Shown: one piece after another, positions 34,123-49,462 of the stretch | Position numbering within the stretch: the stretch's first letter is position 1 | Layout of the letters: each line of letters begins with the position of its first letter | Origin: Desulfurococcaceae archaeon MEX13E-LK6-19 | Lineage (GTDB): Archaea; Thermoproteota; Thermoprotei_A; Sulfolobales; Desulfurococcaceae | Direction: 5' to 3' | Length of the DNA stretch: 64,000 bases | Assembly: GCA_029637525.1 (NCBI GenBank) | Contig: CP072660.1 | Span: forward strand, 1,637,612-1,701,611 | Position numbers and translations under genes: made by a program | The notes under the pieces: generated by a model | Database searches by the model: none | Seen by the model: the letters and a program-made list of their open reading frames with translations, nothing else | What the model was told of the DNA's origin: nothing

Positions 34123-37100
34123 GTGAAGAGGCTTCTTTCGGCAATAGTTGTATTACTCTTTATCCTCAGCATAATACCACCATCCATGATAACAGGACTT
34201 AAATACGTAGCATACGCGCAAACACCAGTAGAGATCGTTATTACGCAAGATAATATTACAAACTCCCAGTATTTTAAAGGCGGTAGCGGTACACCCGATG
34301 ATCCATGGATTCTAGAGTTCGGCACACTACCCCTAGAAGGCGGAAAGATATGGTTAACAAACTTCACTGGAGGATACATACTAATAAAGGATAGCGAAGT
34401 ATACAATGGAGGCGATTACCTCCTCAATATATGGAAGAACGTAAGCAACATACATCTTACTATAATGAACTGTAAACTCCATGGAATAACAGGCAAAGGA
34501 CCAATACTCTACATTAGTGCCACAAACTCAACTATATACGTAATGAATTCAGTATTATACAATGCTTCATCAAAAGATTGGTGGGAGGCAGTACTTACAA
34601 TAGAGGACTCCTACAACACCATGGTCTTAATCGATAACTCAACACTATACTGGGGCGGACATATCATAAGAGTAAGTAATGTTGACAACGTGACACTAAA
34701 TGTCTTCAATTCAAATCTCTATGGCGTCAGAGATGACGTAGGCTGGGGTACTGACTGGAGAGGACTGATACGTGTTGATGGATCAACATCTGGTCTAAAC
34801 ATTTATGTTGTAAACTCAACTGTAAGCGGTAAAGATGCGGCCGGGCCAGCTTCATTTATTGAAGTAGAGGCAAGCGTTGACAATGTCTACGTCATAAACA
34901 CCACAGTAAAAAGCGGTGGACCAGGGCTCGTGTATGGTGTCTATGTTAAACATGGCCATATAAGCAACTTGTTTATAAACAATGTATATGTAGAGTATGG
35001 AGCCATTACAACACACTTTGTAGCAATATACTCAGGCGAGGACATGAACTCTCTTACATTGCAAAGAGTAGAAGCACATGGGCTTGGCAAAGACCTTGTC
35101 CACATAGGTTCTGATGCAGCTGGTATACACATCAACTCAATAACGCTATCCAATATAGTATTCACTGACAGCAGATACCTCCTAGGATTCAGCCCACAAG
35201 TAAACATAGATCTCATATCAGTATCATTTGTAAACTGTTCCGGAATATCAAAAGTCATGTCAATACCCAATGATAACAACAAGATCGGGCTATTCCTGGT
35301 ATCATACATGAATGTATACAAAGCTGGCGATGGATTCGATATCAGGGGTATTAGTAGCGGATACTTCAGCTACATTAACCTAACATACTTCAACCCCAAC
35401 GACGACTACTGGATCGACGGTAACGGATTCTATCTAGTAAACGTCAACAACACAGTATTCGAGAACATATTCTTCTGGGGCGCTGGCTGGAAAGAATTCA
35501 TCCTGGACAGGGGACACTTCGAGAACATAACAATAAGGAACTTCGTATCAATGGAGTACCCTGGAACCAATGGCAGGAACCCATTCATAGGAATAGGTGC
35601 ATGGGGTACTGCCACAGTAAAGAATCTCATCATAGAGAACGGTACTATCTACGATGAAGACTTGATAACCCAGTATGATACCAGCGACTATATTGAAGGA
35701 CTCGTTATAGCTAATGTATCAGTACATGGTTCAGCACCAGCTGGATGGGAAGGCGGGCGCTGTGGTAGGCTAATATACCTACTCAACGCAAAAGACGTGC
35801 TAATAAGGAATGTACTTCTCGAAAACGCTGAGATCAATGGTATTTACTTAAACAAGACAGAAAACGTGGAGATAGTATATACAAACATTAGCCATGCAAA
35901 AGACTACGGTCTCTACATAGAATCTTATGCATCAAACGTTATTGTACACAACAGCACATTCTGGTACAACGCTGTTAGCCCACAAGCATACAGTGATAGC
36001 AGCGATGTAGTAGCTATGTACAACCTATACACAGACCACACTGCAAGAGATCTTGATGGAGACGGTATTGCCGACGAACCATATGCCTGGGCTGGCGCAG
36101 GCAATGTCGTTGACTTATACCCAATATACTCAGGAACATACTTGTACTTCATCAACATAACCGATGACAATGCTGCTGACCTAGCTGTTAGCGGTAGTGG
36201 TACAGCTGAAGACCCATACATCATTGTCTTACATGTGACCAACGTGCCCGAAAGCTATAGATACGCTGTCTACATAAACGTGACACAGTATCACATAGTA
36301 GTCAAGGGTGCTGTAGGCGGCTCACAAAGCGAAGCCGCTGTCTATGTAAGTAGAGAATCCTCAGGTCTAGTCAGAATAGAAGACCTAGAGATCACAAGTT
36401 CAGGTAAGCATGGACTAATTCTTGATGGAGCCAGCGATATAGTTGTCGAGAACCTCACTATAGGACCTGTTGGAGGATGGGCTATAGGTCTATGGGGAGC
36501 TAGCAACGTAGTATTTGATCAAGTATACATAGACATGCAGGGTAGTGGATGGGACGGTGTCTACATGGACTCTTGTGACCACGTGAAACTCCTCAACGTA
36601 AAGATCTATAACCCACAATACAAAGGCATCTACTTGAAGAACAGCCACTACGTAGTACTAGACAACATCAAGATCGATAATACTGGAGATGACGCAATCC
36701 AGGTATACAATGTAACCCACTTCACGCTAAAGAACTCATTCCTAGGCAACGCCAAGTGGCATGACCTGAAGGTAGTAAGCGGCTCCTACATAACAATCAT
36801 CAACACAACATTCAACGGCATAGTAACCGGCGGTGATGGAGTAGTATTTGGTGACGGCGGCGAAGTATACAACGTCTATATAGAGAACGTTGTAATCAAG
36901 AGAGCCGAGTGGAAAGGACTATGGCTCTACAACACTGTCAATGCAACACTCGTGCACGTAGTAATCGATGGTGAAGGCGTCTGGTTCAGGCACCCAGGAC
37001 TAGGAGTAGAGGGCAGAAGCAAGGACGATAAGAACACCCGTGACATAGTAATCAAAGACTGTGTAATCAAGGGAGTTGTAAGCAATGGTGAAGGATGGGA

Positions 37101-37983
37101 GAGCGGTATATTCATTAAATACGCTAAGAACGTAGTCGTAGAGAACTGTGAAGTAGCCTTCAACACAAGATACGGTATACAAGTATATGTAAGCGAGGAC
37201 GTCATCATAAGGGACAGTAATATCTACAACAACAGCGGAACCAACATAATACTCTTCGGCTCAGTCAACGTTGTAATAGAGAACAACACCATAACAGGCG
37301 CCAAGGACGGCTATGGTGTTGGCATATACTGGAGTGGTGCACACCAGTTCTACAGCAGAGATGTAGTCATCAAGGATAACTACATTGCATACAACAGCAG
37401 ATCTGGTATCAAGATACAGAGAGGAAACATCGAAGGAGTTACTGGAGGACAGAAGAACATCCTAATAGCATACAACGTAATAGAGCACAACGGCTATGGC
37501 AACACAACACTTGAACACAGCTACGGCTTAGTAATTGAAGAGAATACCGAAAACATCACGGTAATATGGAACGACTTCATAGACAACTACCACAAGCCAC
37601 AAGCACTCATAAACTCAAGCAGTGTCGTACTAAAGTACAACTACTGGAGCGACTACACCGGCACTGACGAGAATCTAGACGGGTATGGAGACCAGCCATA
37701 CATAACCGATGGTGTCGGAATTGCTGACCCATACCCAAGACTATTCAAGCTAGGCGAGATATACACTGCAACTGTAACAACAACGGTAACCGAGACAACA
37801 ACAGAAACAGTAACCACAACACAGACAACAACAGAAACGGTGACTACCACTGAAACAACCACAAAGACCGAGACAGAAACAGTAACACAGACAACAACAG
37901 ATTGGACAATGACAGGCATTATCGCTATAGTATTGCTAATTATAGGGCTACTCATCGGTTTCTTTGCTGGAAAGAGAGGCTAA
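34123..37983 (+). CDS. Giant parallel beta-helix (NosD/pectate-lyase-like) surface protein
   Basis: This 1286-residue extracellular protein has a signal peptide (LLSAIVVLLFILSIIPPSM...YAQ), then dozens of short repeats with the PbH1 rhythm, for example VVIKDNYIAYNSRSGIKIQ, VIIRDSNIYNNSGTNIILFG and VVIENNTITGAKDGYGV. These form a right-handed parallel beta-helix. Two Asp-rich loops (LDGDGIADEPY; ENLDGYGDQPY) resemble NosD-type calcium motifs. A Thr/Glu-rich stalk (about 37768-37902) and a final helix (TGIIAIVLLIIGLLIGFFAGKRG) anchor it. Such folds bind or cleave polysaccharides; no catalytic triad is identifiable by eye. GTG 34123 has GGAGAG 9 bases upstream. A T-run follows the stop. Confidence 0.85.
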   Translation: MKRLLSAIVVLLFILSIIPPSMITGLKYVAYAQTPVEIVITQDNITNSQYFKGGSGTPDDPWILEFGTLPLEGGKIWLTNFTGGYILIKDSEVYNGGDYLLNIWKNVSNIHLTIMNCKLHGITGKGPILYISATNSTIYVMNSVLYNASSKDWWEAVLTIEDSYNTMVLIDNSTLYWGGHIIRVSNVDNVTLNVFNSNLYGVRDDVGWGTDWRGLIRVDGSTSGLNIYVVNSTVSGKDAAGPASFIEVEASVDNVYVINTTVKSGGPGLVYGVYVKHGHISNLFINNVYVEYGAITTHFVAIYSGEDMNSLTLQRVEAHGLGKDLVHIGSDAAGIHINSITLSNIVFTDSRYLLGFSPQVNIDLISVSFVNCSGISKVMSIPNDNNKIGLFLVSYMNVYKAGDGFDIRGISSGYFSYINLTYFNPNDDYWIDGNGFYLVNVNNTVFENIFFWGAGWKEFILDRGHFENITIRNFVSMEYPGTNGRNPFIGIGAWGTATVKNLIIENGTIYDEDLITQYDTSDYIEGLVIANVSVHGSAPAGWEGGRCGRLIYLLNAKDVLIRNVLLENAEINGIYLNKTENVEIVYTNISHAKDYGLYIESYASNVIVHNSTFWYNAVSPQAYSDSSDVVAMYNLYTDHTARDLDGDGIADEPYAWAGAGNVVDLYPIYSGTYLYFINITDDNAADLAVSGSGTAEDPYIIVLHVTNVPESYRYAVYINVTQYHIVVKGAVGGSQSEAAVYVSRESSGLVRIEDLEITSSGKHGLILDGASDIVVENLTIGPVGGWAIGLWGASNVVFDQVYIDMQGSGWDGVYMDSCDHVKLLNVKIYNPQYKGIYLKNSHYVVLDNIKIDNTGDDAIQVYNVTHFTLKNSFLGNAKWHDLKVVSGSYITIINTTFNGIVTGGDGVVFGDGGEVYNVYIENVVIKRAEWKGLWLYNTVNATLVHVVIDGEGVWFRHPGLGVEGRSKDDKNTRDIVIKDCVIKGVVSNGEGWESGIFIKYAKNVVVENCEVAFNTRYGIQVYVSEDVIIRDSNIYNNSGTNIILFGSVNVVIENNTITGAKDGYGVGIYWSGAHQFYSRDVVIKDNYIAYNSRSGIKIQRGNIEGVTGGQKNILIAYNVIEHNGYGNTTLEHSYGLVIEENTENITVIWNDFIDNYHKPQALINSSSVVLKYNYWSDYTGTDENLDGYGDQPYITDGVGIADPYPRLFKLGEIYTATVTTTVTETTTETVTTTQTTTETVTTTETTTKTETETVTQTTTDWTMTGIIAIVLLIIGLLIGFFAGKRG
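37768..37902 (+). repeat. Thr/Glu-rich codon tract (stalk of beta-helix protein)
   Basis: This stalk segment has repeated TETTT/TVTTT units before the C-terminal transmembrane helix. It differs from the other stalks by regular Glu and Val interruptions. Confidence 0.7.
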
Positions 37984-38331: not shown

Positions 38332-39255
38332 TTGCCACTTTATGAAACAAGAAAAGTATTGCGTGTGGGAGAACGAAGCTACGCAATATCTATACCTAAG
38401 GAGTGGGCCAAGAGGCTTAACATTAAGCCAGGCGATCTACTTGAATTAGTATTACATGATAATGGTATTATTGAAGTAAAACCTATTGATGCCGATAGTG
38501 AGCATTCTACGAAATATCGTATACTAACATTTGATGATAAACTAGATCTTTCACTTAATAGTGTTAAAGGAATTATAGAGGCTGCCTATTGTACTGGCGT
38601 GAATAAAATTAGATTAAAGAACAACAGGTTGAGTAAAACACTCGTAAAGGATATTATATCAATCTATCCGGGTGTGATAACTAACCTCAACAATGGATTT
38701 GTAATGATAAATATAGCATTATCTGAAGAGCTTCTAGACTGGAAAGAGGTTTACCACGACATTCTTGTTCTATTAAGAGAATACTACGACTTATTTGAAA
38801 CAGTTATAGAAGCGGATGGAACCAGTAAAGCAAATGATATGGAGAAACTATACTATGATATAAACAAGAATATCCTCTTGTTGATGAGGCTTTGCGGGAA
38901 AAGCATTTATATAAAGAAGAAAAACGGCAGGATTAATCCGTATAGTATATTTGAAACAATAAAAATAATTAAACTCCTTGTGTCGGTAATGCTTGACTTT
39001 TCAAAGAATATCACAGAGCCTCTTAATGAAAACCAGTTATATGTAGTTAAGAGATTAGACAAAGTATTATTTGACAGCCTATCGCTAATTGAAAACGAGA
39101 ATATAGAGAAAATCATTAAACTCCATGAAAGCATTAATGATGTTAGAAAACTAATAGAAGACGATAACACTAAGTATAGGGGCTACTTGTACTCATTGTA
39201 TATTCTTGTCGAAGACCTTGTTTCAACAATGCTTAAACTAGGTCTTAGTAGTTAA
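38332..39255 (+). CDS. AbrB-PhoU fusion regulator, copy 1
   Basis: This 307-residue cytoplasmic protein has an N-terminal SpoVT/AbrB-type swapped-hairpin DNA-binding domain (RKVLRVGERSYAISIPKEWAKRLNIKPGDLLELVL, residues 7-41). A helical PhoU-like region follows to the C-terminus (DILVLLREYYDLFETVIEAD...RLDKVLFDSLSLI). Archaeal AbrB-PhoU proteins are usually linked to phosphate or nutrient regulation; the target here is unknown. It is a paralogue of the minus-strand gene ending at 44646, and both begin with TTG exactly seven codons before RKxxRVGE. It lies directly upstream of the GH130-like gene. Confidence 0.82.
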   Translation: MPLYETRKVLRVGERSYAISIPKEWAKRLNIKPGDLLELVLHDNGIIEVKPIDADSEHSTKYRILTFDDKLDLSLNSVKGIIEAAYCTGVNKIRLKNNRLSKTLVKDIISIYPGVITNLNNGFVMINIALSEELLDWKEVYHDILVLLREYYDLFETVIEADGTSKANDMEKLYYDINKNILLLMRLCGKSIYIKKKNGRINPYSIFETIKIIKLLVSVMLDFSKNITEPLNENQLYVVKRLDKVLFDSLSLIENENIEKIIKLHESINDVRKLIEDDNTKYRGYLYSLYILVEDLVSTMLKLGLSS

Positions 39256-42819: not shown

Positions 42820-43569
42820 CTAGGGCACCGTATTTTGACTAGCCTTTCTCTCAACTACAACAAAATTGTTTGATTCCAGCCATGAACGAAGTGTATTGTT
42901 TTTCCATGAATTAATTATTTTGTTAATGAAATCATTTACATACTCTTCTTTTACTGTCCCATTATAGTAAGCTACATAAGAAGCTCCTTTTTCCACAAGC
43001 TTTTCAGCAAAACCAGATACATTGCCGAACCCACAAGTAAGCATTATTATTGGTTTATTTATTGGCGATGGAATATAGTCAAGTATTTTTTGTGATACTC
43101 CAATACGTTGCTCCCCATCAAACGTCTTCCCACGAACAACAGCACCCTCAACTACATAAAGAGGATGAAAAACAGGATAGAAGACCGAGGGTTCTTCTGA
43201 AGTACCTAAAATAAATTCATTGTCCTCATATATGAATCCATGTGCTACAATAATAACTAAGTCAGCGTCTAGTTTGGGCAACGAGAATAAATCCGTTAAC
43301 ATAAATCCCTTTACAACCACGACCTTAACACCAGTGAAATTGTTTTCTACAATATCCTCAGCATCAAATACAACAATACTGCCAGAAGTACGTGGTTCAG
43401 CAACATAAGGCAATATGTAGTCAGCCAATATGAAGACCAACAATGTTAGTATAATTATCGACTCAACTAGTATAACATACTTAAGGACACGTCGAATTTT
43501 CTCTATATTGACCACTTTCATATATTTGAAGAAAATTCTTTTAGCAGTTTCTAGCGACAATATAACCAC
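42820..43569 (-). CDS. Membrane-anchored CHAT/caspase-like (clan CD-like) protein
   Basis: This is a 249-residue protein with a basic N-terminus, one transmembrane helix (about residues 30-52) and a predicted outward-facing C-terminal domain. That domain has LVIIVAHGF (His 110 followed by Gly) and IIMLTCGFGNVSG (Cys 179), then FAEKLVEKGASYVAYYNGTVKEE and FINKIINSW. The order His-Gly ... hydrophobic strand-Cys-G ... 'A..L...GA..V' matches the CHAT/caspase-fold peptidase pattern. Proteolytic activity is inference. No partner gene is obvious. Start GTG 43569 lacks a clear ribosome site, so TTG 43560 is possible. Confidence 0.6.
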   Translation of the reverse strand: MVILSLETAKRIFFKYMKVVNIEKIRRVLKYVILVESIIILTLLVFILADYILPYVAEPRTSGSIVVFDAEDIVENNFTGVKVVVVKGFMLTDLFSLPKLDADLVIIVAHGFIYEDNEFILGTSEEPSVFYPVFHPLYVVEGAVVRGKTFDGEQRIGVSQKILDYIPSPINKPIIMLTCGFGNVSGFAEKLVEKGASYVAYYNGTVKEEYVNDFINKIINSWKNNTLRSWLESNNFVVVERKASQNTVP

Positions 43570-43668: not shown

Positions 43669-44646
43669 CTATTTGTGTGAAGAAGCTAGGTTTCTTATGT
43701 ACTTACTCACTGCAAGTTCTGATATATCCATCGCTATTGTTGATAATAATTCCAATTCACTTGCAACACCTTGGAGTTCCTGGAATTTTGTTCTTATTTC
43801 AGCAATCATTTTCTTGAACTCACGCCTTCTTACGAGTAATTTGCCTGTAAGCCCTATATCGGAGTTGATATATGCCGTTATTGCATCTGATATTATTTTT
43901 CTTGAGAACGCGAATGACTTAAGCATATACTCTCTTGCTTTAGACCAGTCGTTTTCCATGAGGATCCTTATACTACGGTCTAACGAGTCTCCTATATGCT
44001 CTATGCTTCTTATTAGTAACAGCTGGTCTAGGAGTTCTTGGTATTTGGGCGCAGTAAGTGAGGCAAATCCCTTGCCGCGTTTAATAAGTCTTAAACCTAG
44101 GAAATACAGTCTGTCTAGCTCGTCATCAGTTTCAAGAACTTTCTTTGCAAGTGTTTCATCGTTTTTCTCAATATAATCTTCAACATAATCGTACATTAGG
44201 TTCAATACTCTAATCATCCTAGTTAGCACTTCTTCTATATCGACCATGTTTTCTGATATAGCGATCTTTATTGTTATATCCCCTGATGGCGATTCTAGTA
44301 CTACTATACCGGGTAGTTTAGTGGCAAGAGCATTGAGTACACCTGTGAATTCAGGTTTTGTATTGACAAGTACTACTTCGTCATAACCTTCGACGTAGCA
44401 TCCCATAATGGTTCTAGACAATATATCTCCATTGAATCCTGATGAATCCACTACTACTTTATTAGGTATACTTGTTTTACTCTTCTCCTTACTAGGATGA
44501 ATACATATTGACCCATTTTTCTCGAGTATTAGGTTTACTGTATCTCCTGATTTGAGTCCAAGTGATTGTATCCATTTCTTAGGTATTGTTACGGCGTAGC
44601 TTTTTTCTCCGACACGAATAATTTTCCTTAACTCAAGCCACGACAA
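43669..44646 (-). CDS. AbrB-PhoU fusion regulator, copy 2
   Basis: This protein of about 325 residues has an N-terminal AbrB domain (RKIIRVGEKSYAVTIPKKWIQSLGLKSGDTVNLIL) and a PhoU-like helical region (MIRVLNLMYDYVEDYIEKND...SIEHIGDSLDRSIRIL). It is paralogous to the copy at 38332. TTG 44646 is chosen because it gives the same N-terminal length before RKxxRVGE as the other copy; an upstream in-frame start would add 12 hydrophobic residues. It lies 71 bases downstream of the small membrane gene of the permease operon and 99 bases upstream of the CHAT-like gene. Confidence 0.8.
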   Translation of the reverse strand: MSWLELRKIIRVGEKSYAVTIPKKWIQSLGLKSGDTVNLILEKNGSICIHPSKEKSKTSIPNKVVVDSSGFNGDILSRTIMGCYVEGYDEVVLVNTKPEFTGVLNALATKLPGIVVLESPSGDITIKIAISENMVDIEEVLTRMIRVLNLMYDYVEDYIEKNDETLAKKVLETDDELDRLYFLGLRLIKRGKGFASLTAPKYQELLDQLLLIRSIEHIGDSLDRSIRILMENDWSKAREYMLKSFAFSRKIISDAITAYINSDIGLTGKLLVRRREFKKMIAEIRTKFQELQGVASELELLSTIAMDISELAVSKYIRNLASSHK

Positions 44647-44717
44647 TATTATCGACCATGAAATAATTATGGAAGAAAACACTATATTTACTCTGTAAGT
44701 AACGTTATAACCAGGTA

Positions 44718-46088: not shown

Positions 46089-47111
46089 TCACCTCCTAAT
46101 ACGTGGGTCAAGATAGGAGTAGAGCATCTCGGCTATGGTGATCGCAATGAGTACTGCAAGAGTTATTATCGTGAACCCGCCTATGATGAGAGGTTGATCG
46201 TTAGCCTTCATAGCATCGTACAAGAGACTTCCAACACCAGGGTAATGAAATATTGTTTCGGTGACGACAGCACCACCGAATACAAAACCAAGATCTATTG
46301 CCATGAGAGTTATAATTGATGGCGCTACTGCTCTGAATATATACCTGTTAAATATACTATCTTCCGGCAATCCTGCTGCACGCAGAGTTACAACATAATC
46401 TTGAGTCATTTCCTCTGTAGTCATATTCCTTACTACAAGAAGATACTGCACAGCATAGATTTTCGATAGTGTCAACATAGGCAATATACTCATCCAGAAC
46501 CATGCCACCATATGCGATCCTATGTCAGGAGCCCTTGTTACACCTGTTTCAAGTCCCCAGGGGAACCAGCCTCTACTGCTGGAGAAGAGGTACAGTAATA
46601 GTAGACCGAGCCAGAACACTGGTAGAGCTCTTATACCTACTATAAGCCACGTCATACTTATGTCTAGTAGAGTTCCCCTCTTTCTCGCAAGATATGTTCC
46701 AAGAGCAAGCCCTATCATCGACCCGAATATGAAGGCGCTACCAACAAGGCTTATAGTCCATGGCAACCTCTCTAGAATTACTTCACTAACAGGACGGAGT
46801 CCATGACGTGCCGATGGCCCGAAATCGAAGGTAAACACGCTCTTTAGGAACTTAAAGTACCTAATGTATATGGGGTCCTTGTATACCGGTCTTCCGAGTT
46901 CCTCATCGTATTTGTATCCAAACCTGTCAAGATAGTATAGGTATTGCTGGAAGACTCCTGGTTCTCTACGCTCTAATAACTGGTCAAACGGTGTTTTACC
47001 TGTTATAATAAACGATAATTCTGTTAAACCCCAGATTATAGTTAAGATTATTAGAAACGTTAGCAATCTCTGTAACAAGATTTTAACAATATGTCTTGCT
47101 AGCCCCGCCAC
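46089..47111 (-). CDS. ABC importer permease (DppB/OppB-like), system 2
   Basis: This permease has about 340 residues and the DppB pattern: N-terminal helix LLQRLLTFLIILTIIWGLTELSFII, the large loop PFDQLLERREPGVFQQYLYYLDRFGYKY, the EAA loop EEMTQDYVVTLRAAGLPEDSIF and the C-terminal YSYLDPRIRR. GTG 47111 follows GGTGG by 8 bases, and the remaining upstream open frame overlaps the divergent receptor gene, so it is not used. It is the first gene of the operon, divergent from the binding-protein gene at 47249. Confidence 0.9.
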   Translation of the reverse strand: MAGLARHIVKILLQRLLTFLIILTIIWGLTELSFIITGKTPFDQLLERREPGVFQQYLYYLDRFGYKYDEELGRPVYKDPIYIRYFKFLKSVFTFDFGPSARHGLRPVSEVILERLPWTISLVGSAFIFGSMIGLALGTYLARKRGTLLDISMTWLIVGIRALPVFWLGLLLLYLFSSSRGWFPWGLETGVTRAPDIGSHMVAWFWMSILPMLTLSKIYAVQYLLVVRNMTTEEMTQDYVVTLRAAGLPEDSIFNRYIFRAVAPSIITLMAIDLGFVFGGAVVTETIFHYPGVGSLLYDAMKANDQPLIIGGFTIITLAVLIAITIAEMLYSYLDPRIRR

Positions 47112-47159
47112 TCTGCAATCCACCAAGCTAGCATTGTCCATGTGTGTAATAAAAAAATG

Positions 47160-47180
47160 CGTATTAACGGGGTAAATACG
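47160..47180. promoter_or_regulatory. Dyad in the divergent promoter region of importer system 2
   Basis: CGTATT, a 9-base spacer, then AATACG lies in the 137-base gap between the divergent permease operon and the binding-protein gene. It may be an operator controlling both halves of the importer. The arms are only 6 bases. Confidence 0.3.
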
Positions 47181-47248
47181 GTTACTACGGCTTTGTAAAT
47201 GAGGTTTAATAATTTTTTGAAAAATAAAAACGAAATAGGGATTGTCCC

Positions 47249-49462
47249 ATGAGATACAATACAGTTTTATCAAAAACCCTGCTTGCCTTACTAGCATTAA
47301 CCCTAATACTACCAGTCATACCAGCCCTTCAGGTAAGTGCAGAGGATGGACCAGACTTAGTATTGGTACTACTAACAGAGCCATCAGTAATCAACCCATT
47401 CACATACACTTCAGTATACGAACAAGTAGTACTAGAGGCAATCTATGAGCCCTTAGTCAGAATGGCTCCAGACGGCTCGATTGTACCAAACCTAGCTGTA
47501 TCCTGGACTAGCGAGAACAATACATGGACATTCTATCTTAGATCCGATGTAGTATGGCATGACGGAGAACCATTCAACGCCTCAGATGTAGCTTTCACAC
47601 TCTTACTCGCCAAACAACACCCAGAGCTCCAGGGCGGTAATGCCGACTTCTATGCTGCACTACAAAACGTAGTAGTCGAGAATGCTACTGTAGTAAAACT
47701 AGTATTCAACCAGACTGTCCCAGTACTAGAGAAGCTCGCATCAATATACATTGTACCAAAACATGTATGGGAGACCATACCCGCAGACCAGCTTGCAGCA
47801 TCACTACCAGAGGACAAGATCATTGGTTGTGGCCCATTCAAGTGGTCTGAACATGTACCTGGAAGCTACATAAAACTTGTTAGATTCGACCAGCACTTCC
47901 GTGGAACACCCGAACCAGCTTCACTAACATTCAAGTTTGTCTCTAGCGTGGATGAGGCAGTAAACCTAATCTACACCGGTGAAGCTGACGCTGGATTATA
48001 CTATGTATACAAGAAAGTACACACATCTAAGCTAAACGAACTGGTACAGCAAGGAAAAGCCATTGTATGGCAGGGTCTAGGTTCCAGTACACACGTATTA
48101 ATGTTCAACTTACGCAAGTACCCATTCAGCGAGAAAGCATTCCGTCTAGCAGTAGCACTAGCAATCAATGTAACCGATATTGTAACCAAGTACTATGGAA
48201 AATGGGTGTTCGCTGCCCCAGGTAACCTAGGATTCGTTAGCCCAAGATGTGGTAACTTCACATGGTATGCATACAAGGAGGACGTATATCCATACAACCC
48301 AGAGCTTGCCAAGAAGATACTAACAGATGTACTAGGCTTCAAGGATGTTGATGGAGACGGCTACCTAGAACTACCTGATGGAAGCGACTTCAAGGTACAC
48401 ATAATACAAGTACCAAACGATGCATTCTATAGAGACCTCATCTCAGAAGACATAGCAAACTACCTCAAAGCAGTTGGAATCGATGCAGAGTTCACACCAA
48501 TCGCTAGCAGCTCTGACTACTGGTCAATGCTTGCACAAAGAGACTTCGAGATGACTGTTGTAGGATGGGTAACACCACGTTCAGACAGAGCACTAGCTTC
48601 ACAAGCAGGCTGGTGGGTACCATTAACATTCCTATCATGGCTCACATCAACCGAGGACAGGCCCGGTGGTGGCAACACACCAGGATTCAGGTCAAGAGAG
48701 TACGACACCATATATGCTGAGTTCAAGAACGCATTCATGAGCGGCGACTACACAACAGCTGCCTACAAAGCCTACGAGCTACAGTACATAATAGCCCGCG
48801 ACCTACCAGTGATAGGCTTCTATCACCCATACGTTGTAACAGCTGTTAGAATAGACAAGTACCAGGACTGGGTTATCACAGCCGAGAACTACGCTCTGAA
48901 CTACTGGAGCTACATCGGAAGCCAAGTAGCTGGACTAGGGCCTGGCCCACTAAAGTATGGTGAACTAAGCATCGATGCATTCCCGGTATACAAGGCTCCT
49001 GAAGACGACATACTGAAGCTAAACAAGCAAATACAGGATCTACTAGTACCAGCTACTCTAAAGAAGCTAGGTGAATCAGTATCAAGCCTAAGTGAGAGAG
49101 TAGATGAGCTAAGCGGTCTAGTACAACAACTCAACGAACAATTATCATCACTACAAAACGCTACAACAGCTGACATCGCATCCATAAGATCAACACTCGT
49201 AACAGTAGCAACAACACTCAACACAACAGCACAAACACTACAAGAACTATCAGACACTCTCAGCGAAATGAAGAACACCCTACAGACACTATCAGAAGAT
49301 GTAAGCTCAGCTAAAGAAGAAGCATCCAAAGCCGCATCAGAATCCTCAGATACAGCCAGCAAAGTCGATAGCCTAGCATCAACAGTAAACATACTCCTAG
49401 CAATAGTCGCCATATCACTAATACTAAACATAATTGGTCTCATAAGAGCGTTCAAAGGCTAA
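47249..49462 (+). CDS. ABC substrate-binding protein, family 5, with coiled-coil tether
   Basis: This is a 737-residue extracellular receptor. The signal peptide (TLLALLALTLILPVIPALQVSA) is followed by the SBP family 5 domain with VLLTEPSVINPF, VPNLAVSW, VVWHDGEPFNASDVAF and GCGPFKW. After about residue 590 comes a long coiled coil (KLGESVSSLSERVDELSG..., then SDTLSEMKNTLQTL...EEASKAAS) and a C-terminal helix (VNILLAIVAISLILNIIGLI). It therefore uses a coiled coil, not a Thr stalk, to stand off the membrane, and may oligomerise. ATG 47249 is the start. It is divergent from its permeases. Confidence 0.92.
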   Translation: MRYNTVLSKTLLALLALTLILPVIPALQVSAEDGPDLVLVLLTEPSVINPFTYTSVYEQVVLEAIYEPLVRMAPDGSIVPNLAVSWTSENNTWTFYLRSDVVWHDGEPFNASDVAFTLLLAKQHPELQGGNADFYAALQNVVVENATVVKLVFNQTVPVLEKLASIYIVPKHVWETIPADQLAASLPEDKIIGCGPFKWSEHVPGSYIKLVRFDQHFRGTPEPASLTFKFVSSVDEAVNLIYTGEADAGLYYVYKKVHTSKLNELVQQGKAIVWQGLGSSTHVLMFNLRKYPFSEKAFRLAVALAINVTDIVTKYYGKWVFAAPGNLGFVSPRCGNFTWYAYKEDVYPYNPELAKKILTDVLGFKDVDGDGYLELPDGSDFKVHIIQVPNDAFYRDLISEDIANYLKAVGIDAEFTPIASSSDYWSMLAQRDFEMTVVGWVTPRSDRALASQAGWWVPLTFLSWLTSTEDRPGGGNTPGFRSREYDTIYAEFKNAFMSGDYTTAAYKAYELQYIIARDLPVIGFYHPYVVTAVRIDKYQDWVITAENYALNYWSYIGSQVAGLGPGPLKYGELSIDAFPVYKAPEDDILKLNKQIQDLLVPATLKKLGESVSSLSERVDELSGLVQQLNEQLSSLQNATTADIASIRSTLVTVATTLNTTAQTLQELSDTLSEMKNTLQTLSEDVSSAKEEASKAASESSDTASKVDSLASTVNILLAIVAISLILNIIGLIRAFKG

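Follow-up and report, generated by a model that had tools for sequence, protein, structure and literature searches.

A membrane-anchored CHAT/caspase-fold family of predicted cysteine peptidases in Thermoproteota and its association with VGG-tailed surface proteins

Class A sortases are tethered by one N-terminal helix, as is the enzyme of the family described here. GPI8/PIG-K, the C13 subunit of the GPI transamidase, has a caspase fold and one membrane helix and, outside the cytosol, processes hydrophobic C-terminal signals at small residues; it does so, however, within a multi-subunit complex, and its helix is at the opposite end of the protein compared with the family. Apart from an S-layer, most Thermoproteota are not known to possess a cell wall. 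The described sorting systems, namely sortase/LPXTG, exosortase/PEP-CTERM, archaeosortase/PGF-CTERM and rhombosortase/GlyGly-CTERM, resemble the arrangement reported here in the succession of motif, helix and basic tail, in the many substrates served per enzyme, and in the occurrence of adjacent dedicated pairs (PMC3237569), but here the enzyme is caspase-fold, and about 14 residues separate its VGG motif from the core of the helix that follows. A 2021 paper sought a sortase for another archaeal tail motif and reports none in those loci (PMC8416519). The openly licensed literature that we searched yielded no pairing of a caspase-fold enzyme with an archaeal C-terminal sorting signal. That is, sorting systems are known, a caspase-fold enzyme in such a role was not found described, and the role discussed below is a proposal.

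Among caspase-fold proteins, the TPR-CHAT protein (Csx29) of type III-E CRISPR systems (PF12770) is like the family in its fold and in the position of its His and Cys. Its aspartate D543 lies 42 residues before its His (PMC9729208), and the family has an aspartate, Asp69, 41 residues before its own. Unlike TPR-CHAT, the family has no TPR or sensor domain, is membrane-anchored and is predicted to lie outside the cell, and the stretch from His to Cys is 69 residues here versus 42 there. Separase (C50) shares a CHAT-like catalytic fold, with a Z of 8.5 to ctSPD that is only about 1 above unrelated folds; unlike the window protein, it is a giant cytoplasmic or nuclear enzyme held by securin. Some bacterial metacaspases/orthocaspases (C14B, PF00656), 46 sequences, comprise nothing but a catalytic domain and a single membrane helix at the N-terminus, according to a 2012 survey that reports archaeal metacaspases in 5 of 114 genomes, Euryarchaeota only (PMC3501461).

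Gene and predicted fold of the window protein

The window, i.e., the whole stretch of 64,000 nucleotides that was analysed, contains a reading frame at 42820-43569 that an earlier note had singled out. The frame is real and lies on the minus strand, where it encodes 249 aa from a GTG start; the plus-strand reading of the same interval is full of stops. Initiation at the ATG of codon 17 (43521) would yield a 233-aa form, the start of which is closer to the starts of relatives. Residue numbers refer to the 249-aa form, except that R92, D196 and positions in the structure model are named in the 233-aa form (add 16). The gene is present as a single copy in its genome (G000; 1.91 Mb, one contig). 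Its end is 3 bp away from that of a convergent Gfo/Idh/MocA gene, and about 100 bp upstream of its start lies a same-strand AbrB-PhoU gene. An AbrB/MazE-type DNA-binding domain is found in two flanking proteins (38332-39255 and 43669-44682), the second of which is fused to PhoU. Further along, 47249-49462 encodes a solute-binding protein of family 5 that has a long region resembling a coiled coil and a C-terminal helix; its gene is divergent from a permease gene (46089-47297). The features of the peptidase gene are as follows.

42820..43569, minus strand: open reading frame of the predicted CHAT-like membrane-anchored peptidase, 249 aa from GTG (frame and relatives)
42820..43521, minus strand: alternative ATG start (codon 17), 233-aa form, basis of the structure model
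43402..43506, minus strand: predicted N-terminal helix (6-40 in the 233-aa form) that holds the membrane anchor and is preceded by a flank rich in K/R (model; hydrophobicity 2.76, N-flank +6, C-flank -1)
42841..43389, minus strand: predicted CHAT/caspase-fold catalytic domain, residues 45-227 of the 233-aa form (model and fold matches)
43363..43365, minus strand: Asp69 (Asp53 of the 233-aa form), end of the first strand (invariant, 59/59)
43240..43242, minus strand: predicted catalytic His110 (His94) (invariant, 59/59)
43246..43248, minus strand: Val108 (V92), Arg in 50/59 members (family alignment)
43033..43035, minus strand: predicted catalytic Cys179 (Cys163) (invariant, 59/59)
42934..42936, minus strand: Asn212 (N196), Asp in 50/59 members, the other nine being precisely those that also lack the Arg (family alignment)

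An AlphaFold2 model was built from the window protein and three relatives; for the window protein the mean pLDDT is 87.8 and the pTM 0.84. The model consists of a helix at 6-40 followed by an alternating domain, in which His94 comes directly after strand 88-92 and Cys163 after strand 157-161. Fourteen of the 18 best PDB chains found by Foldseek are titled TPR-CHAT, Craspase, Cas7-11/Csx29 complexes or CRISPR effector with caspase regulator; the remaining four are two chains of DdvA and two titled only 'bacterial protein complex'. When compared by VIA-align, for which a Z below 8 may reflect merely a common arrangement, two TPR-CHAT/Csx29 chains reached a Z of 11.5 (rmsd 3.4 over 148 and 3.2 over 147 residues), well above that level, followed by DdvA (10.7), separase (ctSPD, 8.5) and the best unrelated folds (about 7.4). 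GPI8 is absent among the 50 VIA-align matches listed, and no sortase or exosortase model appeared in the Pfam or NCBIfam scans or among the fold matches listed.

Sequence searches of Pfam, NCBIfam and the PDB with the window protein returned nothing usable. PF12770 (CHAT) and PF00656 (C14), the two profiles that the earlier note had suggested consulting, do not match it in Pfam, nor does PF01364 (C25), and PF12770 has no match in the whole of its genome. The matches to DUF1353, ATP-synthase 8 and Ish1 (E 0.008-0.024) are all under the cut-off and were discarded. Scanned singly, 13 family members gave one sub-threshold match to PF12770 (12.1 bits, cut-off 24) and one to PF01364 (E 0.1, 12.3 bits of 23), and none of the members scanned matched PF00656. 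By contrast with these single-sequence scans, a profile of the family domain aligned by hhalign with five canonical CHAT proteins of the same phylum gave a probability of 92% (E 6.5e-7), with His on His and Cys on Cys, versus 0.1% for the reversed-family control. Chains of short-chain dehydrogenases retrieved by the family profile (E 0.15 and worse) have only a strand-helix pattern in common with it and were rejected.

Taken together, the structure prediction and the fold comparison, whose top solved matches are TPR-CHAT/Csx29, DdvA and separase, support the reading of the window protein as an anchored CHAT/caspase-fold (clan CD) predicted cysteine peptidase. This upholds the fold proposed earlier from the motifs VAHGF (His110) and IIMLTCGFG (Cys179) and the C-terminal block FAEKLVEKGASYVAYY, all of which are present as described. 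It likewise upholds the clan CD order of the two residues, both of which follow predicted core strands and are put in the CHAT register by hhalign.

Family members, conserved residues and topology

A search with the window protein alone reached 4 of the 197 genomes of its order, its own included, and a profile of four sequences (A1) extended this to further single-helix proteins; many of the weak profile matches turned out to be other proteins and were set aside. With a profile of 13 sequences (A2) at E 1e-4, the family was detected in 64 of 398 Thermoproteota genomes (56 of the 316 of good quality) and in 44 of 164 genera, whereas canonical CHAT proteins occur in 5 of 250 genomes. No Pfam or NCBIfam model for the family exists. 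The earlier description of a small, stand-alone and poorly described archaeal protein thus holds as regards the lack of a curated model, but the protein is not isolated, being a divergent member of this family. An origin from mobile elements was set aside because plasmid, phage and viral-contig searches were without relatives: 72,556 plasmids and 50,697 phages contained none of the window protein, and neither L028 in plasmids nor L026 in viral contigs had one. Among viral structures, the best match has an E of 0.0017, and two giant-virus caspase-domain proteins are among the next three.

The family alignment has 59 rows, i.e., 61 stretches minus L119 (a fragment) and L127 (no match). Asp69, His110, Cys179 and Gly195 are invariant in all 59, and His110 and Cys179 are also invariant in three diverged relatives with 21-34% identity; for these two reasons the His110/Cys179 pattern is beyond chance. 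The residue after the catalytic His is Gly in the window protein and in 24 of the 59 members overall, and Ser in 23. The residue closing strand 5 is Trp in 47 members; in clan CD, three regions determine S1 specificity, among them the loop that follows strand 5 and carries a conserved aromatic (PMC4357240). Asp69 probably lines or gates the active site, since D543 of TPR-CHAT, which is more distant from its His by one residue, touches the dyad when that protein is inactive (PMC9729208).

Two other positions divide the family. An Arg two residues ahead of the His and an Asp at 196 are each present in 50 of the 59 members, and the same nine lack both. These nine fall into two separate clades of the tree, each with a support of 100/99: one comprises the window protein with L120, L121 and L122, the other a set of five (L111, L113, L114, L116 and L117). 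A second strongly hydrophobic segment, downstream of Asp69, is present in all five members of the latter clade, and also in L118, L122 and L124. The branch of the window is long (1.56 changes per column), and the placement of its member L120 is unsure; judged by sequence, the window protein is on an early or fast-evolving side branch of the family. The Asp lost there (D196) may correspond to the Asp of separase that binds the P1 Arg. The P1-Arg-binding Asp itself has been described for separase (PMC10317155, PMC9729208). A separase-like basic P1 specificity arising from D196 is no more than a lead, because the two clades have lost R92 and D196 jointly, which an R92-D196 salt bridge would fit as well.

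The topology was deduced from the sequences flanking the helix and from the composition of the domain. A strong hydrophobic segment lies ahead of the domain in 57 of the 59 members. Across the 59, the mean net charge flanking this helix is +5.6 on the N side and +0.4 on the C side, with the N-side flank the more basic in 53 and three ties. From Asp69 onward, N-x-S/T sequons number 179, versus 67.8 expected from shuffles, i.e., a 2.6-fold enrichment, while the control of 201 soluble proteins from the same stretches gave 240 observed versus 221.8 expected. The window protein has 4 sequons where 1.35 are expected. Because of the charge bias and the excess of N-glycosylation sequons, the catalytic domain is predicted to be outside the cell, in agreement with the orientation first proposed for the window protein.

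VGG tails beside family genes and across genomes

Single-pass or tail-anchored proteins of at least 250 aa make up 28 of the 114 immediate neighbours of family genes, versus 46 of the 673 other genes in the same stretches, and PKD, Ig-like or CARDB domains were found above the Pfam cut-off in five of the six large neighbours scanned. These neighbours share a tail plan, in which VGG comes first, then a spacer with a median length of 14 residues, the membrane helix and at least two Lys/Arg. Across 25 aligned tails the GG is invariant, preceded by V in 24 and by I in one. The pattern [VITAL]GG ahead of the helix occurs in 25 of 32 C-tail membrane proteins within 400 bp of the family gene versus 13 of 61 farther away, and composition shuffles expect 11%; the motif was first noticed in these same neighbours, so that only the non-training counts given below are independent. 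An adjacent VGG protein is found at 22 of the 59 loci, spanning 15 of 26 taxonomic families and often just upstream on the same strand, and 37 loci have no VGG neighbour. The rule had counted 23 loci, but L076, with its multi-pass neighbour, was later removed; TGGGEI, the tail of L107, is counted as VGG among neighbours and is absent from profile A4. Other recurrent neighbours, not of the cell surface and named by eye (Lrp-type regulator-like, quinolinate-synthase-like and others), belong for the most part to a single group of related genomes.

Since the motif had been found in those same neighbours, VGG tails were searched for genome-wide. Profile A4, made from the 25 tails, was run over the 398 genomes of the phylum, and matches had to cover the VGG columns. 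At E 1e-5, VGG tails are present in 30 genomes, 28 of which have the family, versus 36 of the 368 others. When the 20 training genomes are left out, the family is present in 8 of 10 versus 36 of 368 (p 7e-7, which ignores relatedness; some non-training genomes are in the same genus as training ones), and at E 1e-3 in 11 of 16 non-training VGG genomes versus 33 of 362. Out of 50 tails at E 1e-4, 26 are non-training, and 23 of these are in family genomes; eight of the 26 have a family gene at most 3.5 kb away, which for three of them is a second copy at a distance of 59-71 bp (G451, G534 and G525). Nine non-training tails were read back from the DNA, and eight had the expected form; that of L155 was not recovered.

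The correspondence is incomplete in both directions. VGG tails occur without a detected family member in G220 and G496 at E 1e-5, and in G530, G342 and G237 at E 1e-3, while 33 of the 64 family genomes, including that of the window, have no VGG tail at E 1e-3. Several genomes, e.g., G400 and G350, encode several unlinked VGG proteins far from the family gene, which is the many-to-one pattern of known sorting systems (PMC3237569). No NCBIfam CTERM model matched at cut-off in the 10 VGG-tail proteins scanned. Tails of the PEF type (IPEF or VPEF, helix and basic residues) were seen on other secreted proteins of L089, L091, L096 and L102, all more than 3 kb from the CHAT-like gene, and are probably a second, separate sorting signal.

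Proposed mechanism, alternatives and the window's side branch

Because VGG tails are found almost only in family genomes, the main branch is most likely the caspase-fold counterpart of a sortase or of the GPI transamidase. We consider it likely that the family as a whole comprises N-anchored extracytoplasmic CHAT-type peptidases, that its main branch acts at the VGG tails of surface proteins, and that the window protein belongs to a side branch with another substrate. The earlier note gave no role, and the genomic evidence for one is new here. From the computed features, i.e., the fold, the conservation of the dyad, the outward topology, the gene adjacency and the co-occurrence with VGG, we infer cleavage, a cleavage site and possibly transfer by analogy with known enzymes. 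A surface protein would be exported and kept in the membrane by its C-terminal helix, and the enzyme, tethered via its N-terminal helix, would bind VGG outside the membrane. The His-activated Cys would then cut in or near VGG to form an acyl-enzyme, to be resolved either by water, releasing the protein, or by an anchor molecule, transferring the protein to a new anchor; one enzyme would serve several substrates. A more specific version, which we hold to be somewhat less likely than not, is a sorting system of Thermoproteota not described before, in which a caspase-fold, single-helix extracytoplasmic transpeptidase cuts at VGG and passes surface proteins to a lipid or glycan anchor. In function this archaeal enzyme would correspond to the eukaryotic GPI transamidase, to which it might be distantly related, and the window protein would be an early branch that has a different signal.

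A caspase-fold enzyme paired with a VGG tail would be a directly testable answer to the question of how surface proteins are anchored without an archaeosortase. If true, it would add another unrelated enzyme class to C-terminal sorting, beside sortase, exosortase/archaeosortase and intramembrane proteases such as rhombosortase. It would also give an archaeal caspase-fold protein a housekeeping role at the cell surface, with a bearing on the origin of GPI transamidase and separase.

The family might instead be a surface sheddase or quality-control endopeptidase that clips membrane-proximal stalks or misfolded surface proteins, with VGG incidental to one class of tails. This would fit the more than half of family genomes without VGG tails at E 1e-3 (33/64), and also the surface proteins of the window's genome, which have T-rich stalks and membrane tails but no VGG. 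The aligned tails, however, have little but VGG in common (GG invariant, V/I before it in 25/25) despite differing extracellular domains, a pattern that looks like a recognition signal. As VGG, moreover, tracks the family genome-wide, we regard a sheddase as unlikely. Co-occurrence also bears on whether VGG tails are processed by an archaeosortase-type enzyme, with the CHAT-like gene merely a frequent neighbour or accessory. A protein of the exosortase/archaeosortase family PF09721 is present in 15 of 31 VGG genomes, but none was detected in the other 16 at the sensitivity used, and the co-occurrence is far better for the CHAT-like gene (28/30); we judge this explanation quite improbable.

Two further alternatives concern the enzyme itself. 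The nearest solved folds being TPR-CHAT, the protein could be a signalling or defence CHAT protease that, as in Craspase, cleaves a cytoplasmic partner upon infection. Its outward topology and the lack of a sensor domain argue against this, as does the absence of a convincing PADLOC match in the window gene, six neighbours and three relatives (two weak neighbour matches have E 0.004-0.005), and such a role appears very improbable. Hardly more credible is a catalytically dead caspase-fold receptor or scaffold, which the fast evolution of the side branch and its loss of two otherwise conserved residues might suggest, but His and Cys are kept in 59 of 59 members, both clades without the Arg-Asp pair included.

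Returning to peptidases that act at VGG in the main branch, the side branch differs in what lies around its genes. A VGG neighbour was found at none of the nine loci without the Arg-Asp pair versus 22 of the 50 others (p 0.02, which ignores relatedness). Eight genomes have only copies without the pair (one of them, G234, also has a broken fragment of a family gene), and none of the eight has a VGG tail at E 1e-3. Three of these have A4 matches at E 0.015-0.019, the one in the window's genome being no VGG tail; that genome has four weak A4 matches in all, none of them a VGG tail. Because loss of the Arg-Asp pair and absence of VGG coincide, pair and signal appear to go together, and the window protein seems to have parted from both while keeping the dyad. 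On sequence grounds, we read it as an extracytoplasmic peptidase that has most likely remained active while its substrate changed. What this brings for the window itself is more modest than for the family: a protein so far hypothetical can be described as a predicted peptidase with a named fold and an outward orientation. G227 has copies of both kinds, and its VGG protein adjoins only the copy with the Arg-Asp pair.

Two other genes of this genome deserve mention. A PF09721 gene is located outside the window, on contig 1 of G000 at 1034227-1034985 (E 2.3e-19). Within the window, about 4.8 kb from the peptidase gene, 34123-37983 encodes a surface protein without VGG, a 1286-aa secreted beta-helix/NosD-like protein with a Thr-rich stalk and a C-terminal helix ending in GKRG.
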